From Variovorax sp. PBL-H6 (lineage in GTDB: Bacteria; Pseudomonadota; Gammaproteobacteria; Burkholderiales; Burkholderiaceae_C), in NCBI RefSeq assembly GCF_901827155.1, contig NZ_LR594660.1, forward strand, positions 1 through 64,000: DNA of 64,000 bases, read 5' to 3'. The notes beneath the pieces are model-generated. The model was not told the origin of the DNA, searched no databases, and was given only the letters and a program-made list of their open reading frames with translations. Of the stretch, positions 45,909 through 54,629 are shown piece after piece. The position numbers were made by a program, and so were the translations under genes. Each line of letters begins with the position of its first letter. Within the stretch, counting starts at the first letter, position 1.

Positions 45909-46742
45909 CTACCGCCCGCGCTGCTGCTCGGCAAACGCGTGAATGGCAGCCAGCACCTCCTCGGCGCTCGTCGCGGCCCGAAAACGGCCCGCTTCGTGCG
46001 GCGTCAAGACTTCAGGCGCCTGGCCTGGCAACAGGAATTGGATGCACAGCAGCCCCGCGTCCAAGGCTGCCCGGACACCGGGAGGGCTGTCTTCCACCGC
46101 AACGATGACGAGCGGGCCGGATTTTGTCGACAAAAACTTATCGGCCAACAGCGCGGCCCCTCGCAAATACCCCTCAGGGTGCGGCTTTGACTGCGTCACA
46201 TCGTCTGCCGTCAGCACGAAGGCGAAGTGCTCGCTGGCCGGGCCCACGGCTTTGAGGTTGGCAGTCACCTGGGCAGGGATGCCGCTCGTAACCACGCCCT
46301 GGAGAGCTTTGGCGGATTCGAGCTGTCTGACCACCTCTGGTATCGAGCCTCGGGCTTCGATGCGGTGTGCTTGCGCCAGGTAGTGGTCGAGGAGCAGAGC
46401 GAGCCACTGGTCCAGCGAGAGTACCTGCTTGATTTCAGGGCGAATGCTCACCAGCCAGTGGTAGACGTTCTTGTCGCCAGCGCCGTATAGCGGCATTTGG
46501 GCCTCCACAGGCGCGCCTTCCGCTCCAGGCACGGTGAAGCGCTGTACCGTCGAGAAAGCAGCTGCGGGAATCTCGACGCCGCAGCGGCGCGCCACCGCGA
46601 CCAACTTCTCCATGTGAAGTGGCTCGCTGCGCACAAGGACGCCGTCGACGTCCCAAAGGATACCTACGCCGGGGAGGGCGGGTAAGACGGGGAGGTCACT
46701 CCTGGCGGGAGCGGCTTGACGCAAAGCAGATAGTTGGGGCAT
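45909..46742 (-). CDS. HAD-superfamily phosphatase (beta-phosphoglucomutase-like)
   Basis: 277 residues from ATG 46742. HAD motifs: DVDGVLVRSE (nucleophile Asp and acid Asp), GVVTSGIP (motif II), SKPHPEGYL (motif III Lys) and VEDSPPGVRAAL (motif IV). A helical cap between motifs I and II makes it subclass IA. Substrate unknown. A parS-like palindrome lies inside the gene at 46121-46136. A decayed copy of its middle part occurs at about 50385-50475. Confidence 0.85.
   Translation of the reverse strand: MPQLSALRQAAPARSDLPVLPALPGVGILWDVDGVLVRSEPLHMEKLVAVARRCGVEIPAAAFSTVQRFTVPGAEGAPVEAQMPLYGAGDKNVYHWLVSIRPEIKQVLSLDQWLALLLDHYLAQAHRIEARGSIPEVVRQLESAKALQGVVTSGIPAQVTANLKAVGPASEHFAFVLTADDVTQSKPHPEGYLRGAALLADKFLSTKSGPLVIVAVEDSPPGVRAALDAGLLCIQFLLPGQAPEVLTPHEAGRFRAATSAEEVLAAIHAFAEQQRGR
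46121..46136. promoter_or_regulatory. Candidate parS-like site inside the HAD gene
   Basis: ATTTTGTCGACAAAAA contains the perfect 14-bp palindrome TTTTGTCGACAAAA and matches the three sites near parAB with one or two differences. Distance to rep-par is about 43 kb in this window. Confidence 0.5.
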
Positions 46743-48754: not shown

Positions 48755-49026
48755 AGCAGAACTGGCGCCCCGGAGCTCAGCAGGAGCTCAGCCCTTAGTC
48801 GCGAGCTCTGCGGCGAACGTCTCGCAATAAAGGGGCCATGGTGCCGATTCCGGGGTAAGCCAGACTCGGGCTCGACCAATGGCGCCGAGGCGGAGCACGC
48901 CGGGTGAAAGGCGCAGCCGAAGGGTCACAACGGCCGTAGGTAGGACCCAAACGGGCGTTTCGCCTGCGTATAAATCGCGACCCCTAGACGCGCTATAGCC
49001 GCCGCAAGCGCGGCCCTCAACAACAC

Positions 49027-49126
49027 CAGCACCCACAAGGATATTCACTCGTAGCACCGCCTTCTGCACAAGCAGGCGGAAAGGTCGACTCACGCTTGCT
49101 ACGGGTGCTGCTCTTTCTTGGAGCAG
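49027..49126 (+). ncRNA. Structured cis-regulatory leader, copy 1, upstream of methyltransferase 1
   Basis: P1 CAGCACCC (49027-49034) with GGGTGCTG (49103-49110); P2 GTAGCA (49051-49056) with TGCTAC (49097-49102); P3 CCGCC with GGCGG (49079 side) capped by TGC-ACAA-GCA. An invariant 16-nt 5' bulge ACAAGGATATTCACTC lies between P1 and P2. Immediately after, CTGCTC (49108-49113) pairs with GAGCAG (49121-49126) and hides the GGAG ribosome site; it shares bases 49108-49110 with P1, so the two folds exclude each other. A TATAGC box lies at 49 bases upstream of copy-conserved P1. The element is duplicated at 50733. Confidence 0.7.
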
Positions 49127-49129
49127 ACC

Positions 49130-50158
49130 TTGGCCAGTGCCAGTGCAATCCGCGCTACCAGCGCAAACAATAACTCACTCGCCGCGGCGAAACGCGCAAA
49201 AAACGACGAGTTCTACACCCAGCTTTCCGACATCGAGAAAGAGCTACGGCAGTACAAGGACCACTTTAAGGACAAGGTCGTCTTCTGCAACTGCGACGAC
49301 CCTGAGTGGTCGAGTTTCTGGAAGTACTTCACGCTAAATTTCACGCATCTTCGGTTGGCCAAAGTTGTCGCGACTCATTACGCTCGAGGCGAAGTCTCCT
49401 ACAAGCGTGAATACACCGGTGGCAGCGACATGGCGGGTGTCAGGACTTCCCTCGAGGGGGACGGAGATTTTCGGAGTGCTGAGTGCATCGAGTTGCTCTG
49501 CGAAGCCGACATCGTGGTGACTAATCCCCCCTTCTCCCTTTTCAGGGAATACGTCGCCCAATTGATAGAGCATCAGAAGAAATTTGTGATTATTGGCAAC
49601 AATAACGCCATTACCTACAAAGACATCTTCAGGCTGCTCAGGGATGGCCAACTATGGCTTGGTCATTCTGCGAACAAGACGATGGAGTTTAAGTTGTCGG
49701 CCGACTATGAAAAGTGGGATAGGCTGGACGAAGCTGGCAACAAGTTCGGCAAGGTTCCTGCCATTTCTTGGTTCACGAATCTTCCGCACGAGAAGCGCAA
49801 CGAAGAAATCATTCTTGTTAAGGAGTACCGTGGCCACGAATATGCGTACCCCAGTTATGCCAATTACGACGCCATCGAGGTGTCGCAGGTAAAGGACCTG
49901 CCAAAAGACTATTCTGGAGACATGGGCGTACCTATTACGTTCCTGGATAAACATAGCCCTCATCAGTTCGAAATAATAGGACTAGGGATTGCCAGCTCTG
50001 GGCTTGAAATTGGCGTCAAACCCTATCTAGCTGAGCACAAGGCTTATAGGAAAACCGTACAACAGAGAGGAGCGGTCGACGGCGACCTCTACATGTTGCG
50101 GGAGAGCGAGGTTGTCGTGCCGTATGCGCGAATCATCATCAGGTCCAAGACTTTATAA
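49130..50158 (+). CDS. EcoRI-type adenine-specific DNA methyltransferase 1
   Basis: 342 residues from TTG 49130; GGAG (49120-49123) is six bases upstream and the TTG and site are conserved in the second copy. Matches the EcoRI modification methylase family: KNDEFYTQLSDIEKEL, VVFCNCDDPEWSSFWKYF as the cofactor-binding region, FRSAECIELL and catalytic TNPPFSLFREYV (NPPF at 132-135). It should methylate adenine at a short palindrome. Base composition is lower in GC than the neighbours, a sign of transfer. Its expression should depend on the leader described at 49027. Confidence 0.9.
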   Translation: MASASAIRATSANNNSLAAAKRAKNDEFYTQLSDIEKELRQYKDHFKDKVVFCNCDDPEWSSFWKYFTLNFTHLRLAKVVATHYARGEVSYKREYTGGSDMAGVRTSLEGDGDFRSAECIELLCEADIVVTNPPFSLFREYVAQLIEHQKKFVIIGNNNAITYKDIFRLLRDGQLWLGHSANKTMEFKLSADYEKWDRLDEAGNKFGKVPAISWFTNLPHEKRNEEIILVKEYRGHEYAYPSYANYDAIEVSQVKDLPKDYSGDMGVPITFLDKHSPHQFEIIGLGIASSGLEIGVKPYLAEHKAYRKTVQQRGAVDGDLYMLRESEVVVPYARIIIRSKTL

Positions 50159-50384
50159 GAGGCTCGCCTTTAAACATTTGCCCGCAACAAAATGCTTATC
50201 GGCGACCTTTAAGCAGAGTGGTTTAAGCCCGGCCGTCTGTTCGAGGGCGTCCGGAACGCAAGGCCGGCTTACCTGCGTGAGTTCGCTTACAAGGATTAGC
50301 ACCGAACGTGACGGCCCTCCGGAGGGCAAAGCACCCGTTGGACGGGCCGGCTGCTTCGAGGGTAGCTGACACTTGGGGGAGGGA

Positions 50385-50475
50385 TGCCTCTGATAACGAC
50401 GCCCTGGAGCGCCCCAGCTAGTGAGAGTTGTCTCCATGTCAGGTATCGAGCCGCCCACTTCGATACGTTGCACTG
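50385..50475 (-). pseudogene. Decayed fragment of a HAD phosphatase gene
   Basis: Reading the minus strand in two frames gives QRIEVGGSIPDMETTLTS and then LAGALQGVVIRGIP, which parallel HRIEARGSIPEVVRQLES and SAKALQGVVTSGIP of the HAD protein at 45909. A frame break separates the parts. The rest of 50159-50690 holds nothing else I can support. Confidence 0.55.
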
Positions 50476-50732
50476 GTCAGGGGCTGGCCGCGGAGCTATC
50501 GCTTCGGGGTCGGCGGCCTTACGGTATCCCACCCTCCGACAACCGCGAGGGTCTCAATGAGCGTCCGCGCCACCTCCTCAAATCTTTGGGGGCCTAGCAC
50601 GGCCGCGCTGGCCGGCTGCAGCCATGCTCGCTCCATCTGGTGGTCGCGCCCGAGGCGCAGACTCATCGCGGATTTAAAACGCGGCCTTTATACGCGTTAT
50701 AGCCGCCGAAAGTGCGGCGCTTAACCCATCGC

Positions 50733-50833
50733 CAGCACCCACAAGGATATTCACTCGTAGCACCGCCTCACTGCGATAGCAGGCGGAAAAGTTGACTCGC
50801 GCTTGCTACGGGTGCTGCTCTCTCTTGGAGCAG
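50733..50833 (+). ncRNA. Structured cis-regulatory leader, copy 2, upstream of methyltransferase 2
   Basis: Same architecture as copy 1: P1 50733-50740 with 50810-50817, P2 50757-50762 with 50804-50809, P3 CCGCC with GGCGG and terminal TGC-GATA-GCA, and the ribosome-site hairpin CTGCTC (50815-50820) with GAGCAG (50828-50833). Loops differ (ACAA against GATA, TTC against TCAC) while stems are kept, and the 5' bulge is unchanged, the pattern expected of a selected RNA rather than of plain duplication. Confidence 0.7.
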
Positions 50834-50836
50834 ACT

Positions 50837-51853
50837 TTGACACGTGCCGCCACCTCACCAACCAATTCAAGCACTAGCAACACTTCACTGCATGCCGCCA
50901 AGCGTGGCAAAAACGACGAGTTTTATACCCAGCTTACTGACATTGAAAAGGAGCTGCGGCACTACAAGGGCCACTTTGCAGGGAAAACTGTCTTTTGCAA
51001 CTGCGATGACCCCGAGTGGTCCAACTTCTGGAAGTACTTCACCCTGAACTTTGAGCACCTTGGTTTGGCTAAGTTAGTTGCCACGCATTACGCAAGCGGG
51101 GGGCCATCCTACAAACTGGAGTTCACTGGCGCCGATAAGTCTCTGGTCAAGACGGACCTTACAGGCGACGGTGACTTCCGTAGCGCAGAGTGCGTAGAAA
51201 TCCTGCAAGAAGCGGATATCGTTGTCACGAATCCGCCGTTTTCCCTCTTCAGAGAATACGTGGCTCAGCTCATCGAGCACAAGAAGCAGTTCTTGATAAT
51301 CGGAAATCAAAACGCGCTTACGTACAAGGAAATCTTCACGCTTATCAAGGAAAACGTCGTCTGGGCGGGGACCGACAACGGAGGAACGAAATGGTTTGAG
51401 GTGCCCACGCATTATGAGATACAGACGCAATCAAGAGTTCAAATTATTGATGGAGTGAAGTACTTCAGCATGGGCAGCGTATATTGGTTCACCAACCTTT
51501 TCCATAGCAAACGGAAGGCGGAGCTGGTCCTTTTCAAAGTTTACGCGGGGAGCGAAAGTTCCTACCCGCGATACGACAACTTTGATGCCATTGAAGTGTC
51601 CAAAGTCAGCGATATTCCATGTGACTATGCCGGGTGCATGGGTGTCCCCATCACGTTCCTAGACAAATACAACCCGTCCCAATTCGAAATCGTGGGGAGT
51701 TTTAATGCTGGCGCTCACGGCGAGGAACTAGGCGCCACTAAAACCGCAATTGTCACGAAGGGCAAGTCCATGTTGTGGAACGGCCCGGTAGTGAACAAGG
51801 CCCCCCTCTACAAACGCATAATCGTAAAATTGAAGAAGCAAAATGAAAATTGA
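50837..51853 (+). CDS. EcoRI-type adenine-specific DNA methyltransferase 2
   Basis: 338 residues from TTG 50837, GGAG six bases upstream. Same family and same key motifs as methyltransferase 1 (NDEFYTQLTDIEKELR, CNCDDPEWSNFWKYF, TNPPFSLFREYVAQLIEHKK), clearly homologous but well diverged in the C-terminal half, so target recognition may differ. Its last 11 bases overlap the DUF262-HNH gene, coupling the nuclease to this copy. Reduced GC relative to the flanks. Confidence 0.9.
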   Translation: MTRAATSPTNSSTSNTSLHAAKRGKNDEFYTQLTDIEKELRHYKGHFAGKTVFCNCDDPEWSNFWKYFTLNFEHLGLAKLVATHYASGGPSYKLEFTGADKSLVKTDLTGDGDFRSAECVEILQEADIVVTNPPFSLFREYVAQLIEHKKQFLIIGNQNALTYKEIFTLIKENVVWAGTDNGGTKWFEVPTHYEIQTQSRVQIIDGVKYFSMGSVYWFTNLFHSKRKAELVLFKVYAGSESSYPRYDNFDAIEVSKVSDIPCDYAGCMGVPITFLDKYNPSQFEIVGSFNAGAHGEELGATKTAIVTKGKSMLWNGPVVNKAPLYKRIIVKLKKQNEN

Positions 51854-52967
51854 ACCAAGACAGATATCCATCGGGGAGCTGGTAAGTGGATACGCAGACA
51901 GCGGCGACGCCGGCGTAGTTGGCTTCGGGGGGAGACTAAACATCCGTCCGCCGTACCAGCGTGAGTTCGTCTACAAGGACGTGCAACGCAACAAGGTTCT
52001 CGATACTGTTCGCAAAGGATACCCACTCAATGTAATGTACTGGGTTCGAAACCCAGACCCAGATGCTCCTGACGATGAAAAGCTTGCCAGTTTCGAAGTG
52101 CTGGACGGCCAGCAGCGCACGCTGAGTATTTGCAAGTACGTGAAGGGTGACTTTTCAATTGACGAGGTGTATTTTCATAACTTGCCCCAAGACCAAATGG
52201 ACAAGATTCTTGAATACCCGCTGACAGTGTACGTGTGCGAAGGCCCTGAGAGTGAGAAGCTGGATTGGTTTCAAACTATCAACATTGCCGGTGAAAAGCT
52301 TACCGACCAAGAACTCCTGAACTCAATATTTGTTGGCCCGTGGCTGCTATCGGCCAAGGCCTATTTCAGCAAACCGAACTGCCCGGCCTACCAAATCGGT
52401 TCCGACTACATGACGGGCTCGCCTATCCGGCAGGAATACCTGGAGACAGCCCTCAACTGGATTGAGGGGGGTAACCCGCGCCGTTACATGTCTGGCCACC
52501 AACACGACAAGACTGCCTTTGAACTCTGGAATTACTTTAGCAGCGTCATAAATTGGGTAAAGGCTACATTCCCCGTGGTCCGCAGGGAAATGAAGTCCGT
52601 CCCTTGGGGAGAGCTCTATAACAAGCACAAAGACGACGACTTGGACCCGGCCGAGTTAGAAACGCGCGTCGTGGCACTAATGAAGGATGAGGACGTCTCG
52701 AGGAAGTCTGGCATCTACTCGTACCTCATCACAAAACAAGAGCGTCACCTCAACTTGCGGGCCTTCACTGACAAGGTTAAGGCAGAGGCTTACGCTCGGC
52801 AGGCCGGGGCGTGCGCCGACGTGACGTGCCCAGACAAGGGCCGAATCTTCAAGCTTGACGAGATGGAGGGGGACCACGTCGACCCTTGGCACGCCGGCGG
52901 CAAGTCCATCCTGGCCAACTGCAAGATGCTCTGCAAGTCCTGCAACCGAAGGAAAGGCGGGGTGTAG
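51843..52967 (+). CDS. DUF262-HNH nuclease, probable restriction partner
   Basis: 374 residues. N-terminal DUF262 (ParB/sulfiredoxin-like) domain with RPPYQREFV (36-42) and the diagnostic FEVLDGQQRTLS (84-95), the fold used by GmrS, BrxU and SspE-type nucleases; C-terminal HNH with GDHVDPWHAGG (Asp344, His345), NCKMLC and CKSCNRRK (Asn359, Cys364, Cys367). The ATG lies inside the end of methyltransferase 2. With two EcoRI-type methylases upstream and no separate EcoRI-type endonuclease, this is the natural candidate for DNA cleavage. Low GC as for the methylases. Confidence 0.88.
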   Translation: MKIEPRQISIGELVSGYADSGDAGVVGFGGRLNIRPPYQREFVYKDVQRNKVLDTVRKGYPLNVMYWVRNPDPDAPDDEKLASFEVLDGQQRTLSICKYVKGDFSIDEVYFHNLPQDQMDKILEYPLTVYVCEGPESEKLDWFQTINIAGEKLTDQELLNSIFVGPWLLSAKAYFSKPNCPAYQIGSDYMTGSPIRQEYLETALNWIEGGNPRRYMSGHQHDKTAFELWNYFSSVINWVKATFPVVRREMKSVPWGELYNKHKDDDLDPAELETRVVALMKDEDVSRKSGIYSYLITKQERHLNLRAFTDKVKAEAYARQAGACADVTCPDKGRIFKLDEMEGDHVDPWHAGGKSILANCKMLCKSCNRRKGGV

Positions 52968-53028
52968 GACATCGGTTCGTCAACGCCTACCGAACACCTG
53001 CTTCGCGCCGCGGCAGGTGTTCATCCAT

Positions 53029-54252
53029 TCAGGCTTTCGAGGCAATCCAGGGGAGGGTGACTTTTTGGCTCTCTTCGTGCCACGCCTCATCCTGTGAGTG
53101 GGTATATCGCTCGGTGGTACGCGCGTCCGCGTGACGCGCGTCCTTTTGCACGATTCGCAGGTCCATCTTGGCATCAACGCGAGCGGTAACTGCCGTGTGC
53201 CGCACCCAGTGAGCTGAGGCCGCCAGAAGCTTCTCCTTCTTGTGCGCAGACTCGGATGGCAGAAGGTCCGCGGCTGCGGAAAAAAGCTTTTTCAGTATCT
53301 GGTTCAGCCGGCGCGCGGTGATAGAGCTGCCGTCCTTCAACGACACCAAAAGAGGGGAGTCGTCTTTCTTGGTTGGCACCGCGGAGAGCTTGCGGTGCTT
53401 GCGGTATCTCACTAGGGCCTGAAGCATGTCGTCGGGCACGGCGACCTTCACGAACTTGTCTCCCTTGCCGAGCACGTGCCACCACCAATGGCCGCGGACC
53501 TCCCGGAATGAGCTCATCCGCATACTCTCAAGCTCTCCCGCCCGGGGGCCCAGAAGGTACAGGATGGCGCAGATGAATCGTGCGCGCTCCTTTTCGTCGA
53601 GCTGCCGCTCGGAGTCTTCCGGCAGACTTTCTACTGCCTGGGACACGGCCATCCACATCTCTGGGTCGAGAAATCGCTCAATCTTGGCGTCTTCGTCGAG
53701 CTGCCGCTCGCCGCGCTTGGCAGCAGTCTTCGAGACCTGCTTACGGACCTGCTTGCGCTTCTGCTTAATCAGACCCAAGGGGTTGCCGTAGAGGTAGCCA
53801 CTGTTGGCCAGATAGCCTAAAAATGAGTCTAGGCCTGCGAACGCAGTCATCAGCGCGCTTTCACCGACTGGTCCCACAAACGGGCGCCACCGGTCGGTTT
53901 CTCGGGGAGCCTTGACCCCGCACCATGTCTCGGCGGGCTGCGGGTCTGCCATGAACCGCAGGTAGGCCTCGTAGTCGTCGGTCATTAGCGCGGATACAGG
54001 CTTGTCTCGCTCGTGCCAGGACCAGAGGAACAGCCTCTCCGCCTCCCGGCCGTACTTGCGATGCGTCTCCGGAGACGAATCGAACTGCGCTAAGAACGAC
54101 TTCAACGCTTCGAGGTCGTTGTCAGCTCGGATGAGAAGCCGCTCTGGTGGTGCACGGTTGGGCCCGGAAGCTCCAAGCAGATGCGCCGGCGGCTTGAGCT
54201 GGTCGAGAGGGCGAAGGGGTAGTGGAAGTGCCATAGCCTCGACTGTATCCAT
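53029..54252 (-). CDS. Tyrosine site-specific recombinase (integrase)
   Basis: 407 residues from ATG 54252 (54234 and 54294 are alternatives). Core-binding SAM-like domain about 40-170, catalytic domain with Arg in LLGPRAGELESMRM, HWVRHTAVTA (His, Arg) and RHADARTTERYTH with the nucleophile Tyr. All catalytic residues are present, in contrast to the homologue at 17502. Convergent with the DUF262-HNH gene, so it may have mobilised the island; no attachment repeats were found by eye. 54253-54629 holds no other gene. Confidence 0.9.
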   Translation of the reverse strand: MDTVEAMALPLPLRPLDQLKPPAHLLGASGPNRAPPERLLIRADNDLEALKSFLAQFDSSPETHRKYGREAERLFLWSWHERDKPVSALMTDDYEAYLRFMADPQPAETWCGVKAPRETDRWRPFVGPVGESALMTAFAGLDSFLGYLANSGYLYGNPLGLIKQKRKQVRKQVSKTAAKRGERQLDEDAKIERFLDPEMWMAVSQAVESLPEDSERQLDEKERARFICAILYLLGPRAGELESMRMSSFREVRGHWWWHVLGKGDKFVKVAVPDDMLQALVRYRKHRKLSAVPTKKDDSPLLVSLKDGSSITARRLNQILKKLFSAAADLLPSESAHKKEKLLAASAHWVRHTAVTARVDAKMDLRIVQKDARHADARTTERYTHSQDEAWHEESQKVTLPWIASKA

Positions 54253-54629
54253 CCGCCCTATTTCTGGGAAGAGGAATTCCCAGAAACGGCGCATGCAGCC
54301 GCCGGCCCATGACGTGCGCTCTCGCGATATGACAGTTCAGCCGTCACATCGCGAGCGCCGCGTCGTGATTCGGAGCCGGTTCCGCCGGCAAGTCGGAGGC
54401 CCTGTGCCCGTGCATGCCGCCTAGTGGCACATCGCGACCGTGACAATCTGCCTGCAAGCGCTCACCCGGAGGTTCGCCCTGGGCCAATCTTTTGGCTGGG
54501 CTCGCTCGCGACATGGACTCAGCGCGGCATGTTCTGGTCGGTAGCCTCTCCACCCCTCCGCCCGCCGCAAGACTACGTCCGATTACGTAGAAGAAGTACA
54601 ATTACGCAAGCACGACATAATTGACCATA

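Follow-up and report, generated by a model that had tools for sequence, protein, structure and literature searches.

Exchangeable putative reading cassettes in EcoRI-type methylases paired with a near-constant DUF262-HNH nuclease suggest that the methylase directs cutting

In classical Type II restriction-modification (R-M) systems the two enzymes read their site by different means, and restriction endonucleases (REases) of unrelated specificity generally share no sequence similarity (PMC4081073). The target recognition domains (TRDs) of Type III systems have been reported to move between genes (PMC3983042), and the DUF262 proteins GmrSD, BrxU and SspE act on modified DNA or on its phosphorothioate state (PMC12707154, PMC8713573). 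Here we describe a three-gene set on a megaplasmid of a soil bacterium, Variovorax, comprising two EcoRI-type adenine methylases, M1 and M2, and a DUF262-HNH nuclease, R, which lies in a window of 64,000 nucleotides (positions 1 to 64,000 of contig NZ_LR594660.1, Variovorax sp. PBL-H6). Comparison with its relatives reveals methylase segments that are exchanged beside a near-constant nuclease, which suggests that these are exchangeable reading parts and that it is the methylase that points the nuclease to its target.

We compared 137 methylase-nuclease (M-R) pairs, that is, 117 locus pairs (60 from GTDB, 56 viral, and L084) filtered for adjacency (<200 nt) and length, 19 metagenome pairs in which M was matched to R through equal length of the longest contig and adjacency was not seen, and the pair of the window. 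Two hypervariable segments of M, here called TRD1 and TRD2, have mean pairwise identities of 33% and 30%, whereas the M core averages 58% and R 60%; judging from their place, variability and reuse, on which the name rests, they are probably the target recognition domains that set the site. At 50% identity the segments of 138 Ms fall into 24 TRD1 and 50 TRD2 classes, and 13 of the 14 (TRD1) and 28 of the 31 (TRD2) multi-member classes are joined to at least two classes of the other segment; discrete cassette classes thus undergo recombination, and they reappear beside R proteins from distant lineages. Exchange is likewise seen between close relatives. Where R identity is 75% or higher, 37 disjoint pairs can be formed (nine of which involve metagenome pairs joined without seen adjacency); both cassettes differ in 25 of them, one in 8 and none in 4. 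Both cassettes fall below 45% identity in 335 of 455 comparisons at R identities of 70-80%, in 57 of 83 at 80-90% and in 4 of 6 at 90-97%, the corresponding counts for locus pairs alone being 235/306, 36/54 and 4/5. A clean replacement separates L009 from L017: their R proteins differ at 8 of 360 residues and their M core and TRD1 are 98% identical, while TRD2 is 28% identical, of other length and flanked by sharp borders in the DNA. No segment of R was found that tracks the cassettes, 25-residue blocks of R being about equally similar where TRD1 agrees (54 comparisons) and where both cassettes differ (184); across all 15-residue windows the excess reaches 0.05 at most. Since Type II REases of unrelated specificity are generally dissimilar (PMC4081073), the present pattern is an odd one. 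We favor, with a probability of roughly 0.6, the reading that each M would serve as both the modifying and the sequence-reading subunit, and that R would be a nuclease that does not itself select a target but follows whichever M it works with.

As a classical Type II control, we used BsuBI/PstI R-M loci (PF06616; 38 usable pairs from 46 loci) and asked how often the worst 40-residue stretch of M falls below 30% identity. For R identities of 80-90% this was so in 0% of 43 control comparisons versus 83% of 92 in the present family, for 70-80% in 9% of 66 versus 93% of 483, and for 60-70% in 28% of 32 versus 96% of 4247. Disjoint pairs gave 2/10 versus 43/53 at R ≥60% (Fisher p 0.0004) and 1/8 versus 32/40 at R ≥70% (Fisher p 0.0006). 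Of two features of Type II systems, linkage of the REase and methyltransferase genes is present (157 of 160 loci; see below), and the accompaniment of close REases by methylases of like recognition part is absent, the latter being an indirect result drawn from sequence comparison.

Several points weigh against the favored reading. The sample consists of the closest relatives of R, and two single columns of R differ more when cassettes differ (excess of 0.25 at residue 187 and 0.24 at residue 120). Cassette-class changes on the R tree, albeit far above the possible minima (13 for TRD1, 30 for TRD2), are fewer than after shuffling (70 versus 87.4 for TRD1, 87 versus 100.4 for TRD2), so that some tie of cassettes to R lineage remains. 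At R identities of 50-60% the control diverges as well (91% of 65 versus 99% of 4126), which limits the contrast to close R, and the control is a single family, which does not stand for all of Type II and which yields few disjoint pairs (10 at R 60%, 8 at 70%). A Type III positive control was dropped, its Res query being without relatives in the viral contigs. Finally, unlike cassettes might read like sites.

The alternative that survives best is an ordinary Type II system in which R reads its own fixed site, M2 protects that site, and M1 is an orphan from a decayed first system. PADLOC indeed assigns R and M to Type II, what is left of a first R gene (described below) testifies to such decay, and cassette class is still associated to some extent with R lineage; however, where R is 80-97% identical both cassettes are nevertheless less than 45% identical in 61 of 89 comparisons, unlike in the Type II control, and we thus consider this alternative unlikely. 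A classical Type II-like system had also been one option of an earlier, sequence-only reading of this DNA, and as such is contradicted by the cassette data.

A link to EcoRI itself bears on what the cassettes may do. The M of locus L019 (7022-9080, from a Bacteroidetes metagenome-assembled genome), whose partner is a DUF262-HNH R, is 81% identical in TRD1 and 88% in TRD2 to the methylase located beside an EcoRI-annotated gene on an E. coli plasmid. Because both M.EcoRI cassettes recur in this M, the site of L019 is predicted to be GAATTC. M.EcoRI-like TRD1 cassettes (65-67%) are also found with other TRD2 cassettes (L127, L126, L052, L101, L072), and M.EcoRI-like TRD2 cassettes (62-71%) with other TRD1 cassettes (P0014, L034, P0005). 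It could be argued that the hypervariable segments do not set specificity at all, that one site is common to the family, and that the segments vary for another reason, for example escape from phage inhibitors. The motif is known here for M.EcoRI alone, and the cassettes owe their presumed function to inference, which leaves room for this view; yet the recurrence of discrete classes with distant R lineages and their recombination (13/14 and 28/31 multi-member classes) render it improbable. If the cassettes do set the site, their classes make the code testable: part-sites could be assigned per cassette, with the GAATTC of M.EcoRI as first anchor, and the remaining sites predicted from them.

Linkage of M to R is near-obligate. 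We inspected the best 80 of at least 568 GTDB relatives of R and the best 80 of 100 viral relatives, some viral loci being copies of each other (e.g., L152-L154); the count leaves aside L001-L003 and L085 (own or identical loci) as well as L166-L169, which have no R on the strand scanned. M is present at the R locus in 157 of 160 cases. It is directly adjacent and upstream in 62/80 GTDB and 59/80 viral loci; M fragments or split frames adjoin R in 4 and 11; a gap separates M from R in 10 and 3 (although among the ten at least L020 and L067 are split frames adjoining R); M is downstream of R in 1 and 4; and one M-M-R locus with a single R occurs in each set (L028, L122). L134 has a split M about 240 nt from R. 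The exceptions are two R genes at contig ends and L056, with an M fragment only, about 7.7 kb away. In 37 of 64 clean pairs the M and R genes overlap. On the viral side (L086-L165), the M-R module is carried by many contigs of the collection, some longer than 300 kb, where phage cargo and host DNA were not told apart. The search of other genomes for the linked genes, as proposed in the sequence-only reading, could have returned relatives in which they are never linked; since the M-R pair is near-universal among the sampled relatives, this is not what was found. The same reading had presented a candidate new locus, which did not hold: the locus is not new as such, because PADLOC models match all three proteins (R: REase_II PDLC03418, 407 bits, residues 1-371 of 374; the two Ms: MTase_II PDLC03297, 14-292 of 346 and 28-350 of 353) and the pair is so widespread. 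Four further R relatives and the fusion protein P0241 give PADLOC matches as well. A description of the pairing of a DUF262-HNH nuclease with an EcoRI-type methylase was not found among the titles, abstract openings and passages covered in the literature searched (REBASE and most subscription journals being outside its scope), and the available parts of four DUF262 papers (PMC8713573, PMC4978471, PMC7230728, PMC7785942) do not describe the M-R pair.

A query of joined M2 and R retrieved proteins in which methylase and DUF262 form a single chain (P0241, P0242, P0244, P0250, P0255, P0265). Methylase, DUF262 and HNH are all present in P0241, P0242, P0250 and P0265, whereas P0244 is without the first part of M and P0255 without an HNH match; each may be a real protein or an assembly slip. 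Seven other proteins combine a methylase with a C-terminal part of R devoid of DUF262 (P0247, P0248, P0262, P0267, P0269, P0278, P0294) and were not used as support; they look like separate deletions, because M is joined at different points of R, and are either deletion products or small single-chain enzymes. Linkage and fusion bear on the further proposal that R is a modification-dependent, Type IV-like nuclease reading methylation state. In its favor, R shares DUF262 with GmrSD and BrxU, which act on modified DNA (PMC12707154). An adenine methylase beside 157 of 160 R relatives, as well as M-R fusions, would however be needless for a nuclease of modified DNA, and as R seldom occurs without an adenine methylase nearby we regard this as highly improbable; the suggestion in the sequence-only reading that R reads or cuts modified DNA finds no support beyond the shared domain.

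The window itself offers a case in which one R stands beside two Ms. Between M1 and M2, tblastn detected a collinear remnant of a first R gene (R1), overlooked in the sequence-only reading, with 13 of its 22 residues identical to residues 28-49 of R. Its ungapped score of 61 compares with maxima of 44 in 300 shuffles and 52 in 229 other stretches of the window, and it ends 147 nt past the M1 stop, the equivalent R residue ending 136 nt past the M2 stop. Since the leaders of M1 and M2 are also duplicated (86% over 161 bp, rising to 95% in a 42-bp core), the reading that fits the locus best is M1-(dead R1)-M2-R, in which two M-R pairs stand in tandem and the first has lost its R. In the same interval, 74 bp (50336-50409) are 77% identical to 46232-46304, in the region of a HAD-family gene, and this repeat may be a trace of the event that removed R1. 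Both cassettes are unlike in all seven cases of two Ms in tandem or fused that we compared (the window, L028, L122, P0122, P0131, P0243, P0245), with identities of 13-40% in TRD1 and 16-35% in TRD2; P0122, P0131, P0243 and P0245 carry their two EcoRI-type methylases, with unlike cassettes, in one chain. That M1 and M2 methylate opposite strands of one asymmetric site cut by R would agree with the existence of such M-M proteins, but is most improbable given that one M per R is the rule (62/80 and 59/80 loci with one adjacent M versus 1 + 1 M-M-R loci) and that the presence of an R1 remnant after M1 is indicative of two complete pairs.

If, as we favor, M directs R, one R could serve both M1 and M2, because M would be the specificity subunit and R the shared nuclease. 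M1 and M2 would then mark two different sites, both of them restricted by the surviving R, and loss of R1 would be tolerable since R can take its place; the single R of M-M-R loci and the decay of R1 here with M1 intact would thereby be explained. The mechanism may be pictured as follows. M would read its site via TRD1 and TRD2 and form a complex with R, the DUF262 domain of which may act as a nucleoside triphosphate switch by analogy with GmrSD and BrxU (PMC12707154, PMC4619093); upon meeting an unmethylated adenine at the M site, the M-R assembly would cut with the HNH domain, and methylation would prevent cutting. The best reading of this logic is a Type III-like one in Type II-looking parts. 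At about even odds, a large family filed under Type II constitutes a separate class of R-M systems, in which an EcoRI-type methylase with two cassettes provides the specificity for a DUF262-HNH nuclease that has no helicase, exchange of either cassette simultaneously retargets modification and cutting, one R serves several Ms, and M.EcoRI belongs to this modular methylase family while working with an independent nuclease. Were M to direct R, many of the loci now classed as Type II (at least 8000 proteins matched in each homology search) would be naturally retargetable two-gene enzymes.

The features of the locus are collected in Table 1. The two methylases match PF13651 (EcoRI_methylase) with 397.8 and 415.5 bits, far above the curated cut-off of 26.4, and share the NPPF motif that is invariant across our methylase alignment (alignment A2, M1 and M2 included). 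They are 56% identical overall, and 21% and 20% identical in the two variable segments, with neither cassette common to both. Their likely TTG starts (49130 and 50837) are each preceded by GGAG and are annotated so in the identical locus of plasmid SRS16. R comprises a DUF262 domain (residues 34-163; PF03235, GmrSD_N, 69.1 bits), with a DGQQR motif at residues 88-92 that is invariant in 16 sequences, and an HNH domain (residues 329-372; PF01844, 39.9 bits); Pfam detected no DUF1524 at E 0.01, PF01844 HNH being found instead, and no helicase domain, GmrSD_N and HNH being the only matches. R also weakly matches the DUF262 protein 7p9k of the PDB. AlphaFold models of R (predicted local distance difference test, pLDDT, 75.6; predicted TM-score 0.53) and M2 (mean pLDDT 76.4) have no part in the argument. 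A 7-pair hairpin enclosing the GGAG ahead of TTG can be folded in both leaders (49100-49140, 50807-50847), the folds being not clearly stronger than those of shuffled sequences (z -1.5 and -1.2), and a promoter and terminator scan gave hits below the shuffle average.

Table 1. Features of the M1-M2-R locus and its surroundings (window coordinates).
Feature	Position	Strand	Basis
Acquired cargo	48762..54259	.	blastn of window 44-60 kb against L169, and L169 annotation; flanks common to Variovorax sp. WDL1
M1 leader	48971..49129	+	duplicate in M2 leader; 3' end able to form hairpin holding GGAG
M1, predicted EcoRI-type adenine methylase, 342 aa, TTG start	49130..50158	+	Pfam PF13651; start as in SRS16; invariant columns of alignment A2 kept
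M1 cassette TRD1 (putative)	49643..49774	+	M-R pair comparison
M1 cassette TRD2 (putative)	49961..50152	+	M-R pair comparison
Remnant of first R gene (R1)	50240..50305	+	tblastn match to R residues 28-49, stop inside
M2 leader, copy of M1 leader	50675..50836	+	161 bp at 86%
M2, predicted EcoRI-type adenine methylase, 338 aa, TTG start	50837..51853	+	Pfam PF13651; start as in SRS16
M2 cassette TRD1 (putative)	51350..51490	+	M-R pair comparison
M2 cassette TRD2 (putative)	51677..51838	+	M-R pair comparison
R, predicted DUF262-HNH nuclease, 374 aa	51843..52967	+	Pfam; PADLOC PDLC03418; invariant residues
Tyrosine recombinase of cargo	53029..54294	-	Pfam PF00589; 61% identical to WDL1 integrase

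Most of what the sequence-only reading had seen in the layout is borne out: two EcoRI-type methylases and a DUF262-HNH protein, the coupling of R to methylase 2 (the M2 stop, 51851-51853, and the R ATG at 51843 give an 11-nt overlap), the duplicated leaders, and, according to Pfam searches of ten proteins of the 43-56 kb region, R as the only nuclease. Its idea that the methylases may protect two sites agrees with their unlike cassettes, as far as sequence goes. The acquired island that it had deduced from low guanine-cytosine (GC) content, an integrase and the leader duplication is supported too, as is the placement of an R-M locus on it, with 51-58% GC in 1-kb blocks at 49-53 kb versus mostly 60-65% elsewhere in the window. 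At the same insertion spot, Variovorax sp. WDL1 (L169, 2495-10000) has a different cargo, in which an Eco57I-type R-M gene and a GIY-YIG gene accompany a related integrase (61%), so that this position resembles a hotspot for cargo of this kind. The contig carrying R measures 839 kb, and the Variovorax plasmids SRS16 and PBL-E5, of about 801 kb each, are 100% identical over 11 kb around R. The own genome holds M1, M2 and the single R, with no further match to M or R. R occurs in 2 of 299 genomes of the family and 4 of 398 of the phylum (the own genome counted in both), and its distribution is therefore patchy.

Among known systems, the tandem R-M systems of a Psychrobacter plasmid were considered and set aside as unrelated, consisting of cytosine methylases and a PD-(D/E)XK nuclease (PMC3346939). 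The PADLOC models REase_II PDLC03418 and MTase_II PDLC03297 file the proteins as plain Type II and leave the choice of site unaddressed, and the window differs in having two Ms and one R. With GmrSD, BrxU and SspE, R has in common a DUF262 domain with DGQQR (PMC4619093), but their nuclease part is DUF1524 or related, whereas here it is PF01844 HNH, accompanied by a linked adenine methylase. Type I and Type IIB systems likewise have two recognition domains that can be exchanged, giving new sites (PMC4081073); there, however, the domains reside in the S subunit or within the recognition part of the enzyme itself, and not inside an EcoRI-type methylase. Type III (Mod-Res) systems come close in the proposed logic, namely variable reading domains in the methylase and a conserved separate nuclease subunit, which the sequence pattern fits; they differ in the helicase-like ATPase by which they are recognized, R being composed of DUF262 and HNH according to Pfam. 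The EcoRI system, finally, employs a methylase of the same family (PF13651), both cassettes of which recur in the DUF262-HNH locus L019, but its nuclease, R.EcoRI, is unrelated and recognizes GAATTC by itself (PMC4081073), whereas the nuclease described here is of the DUF262-HNH type.

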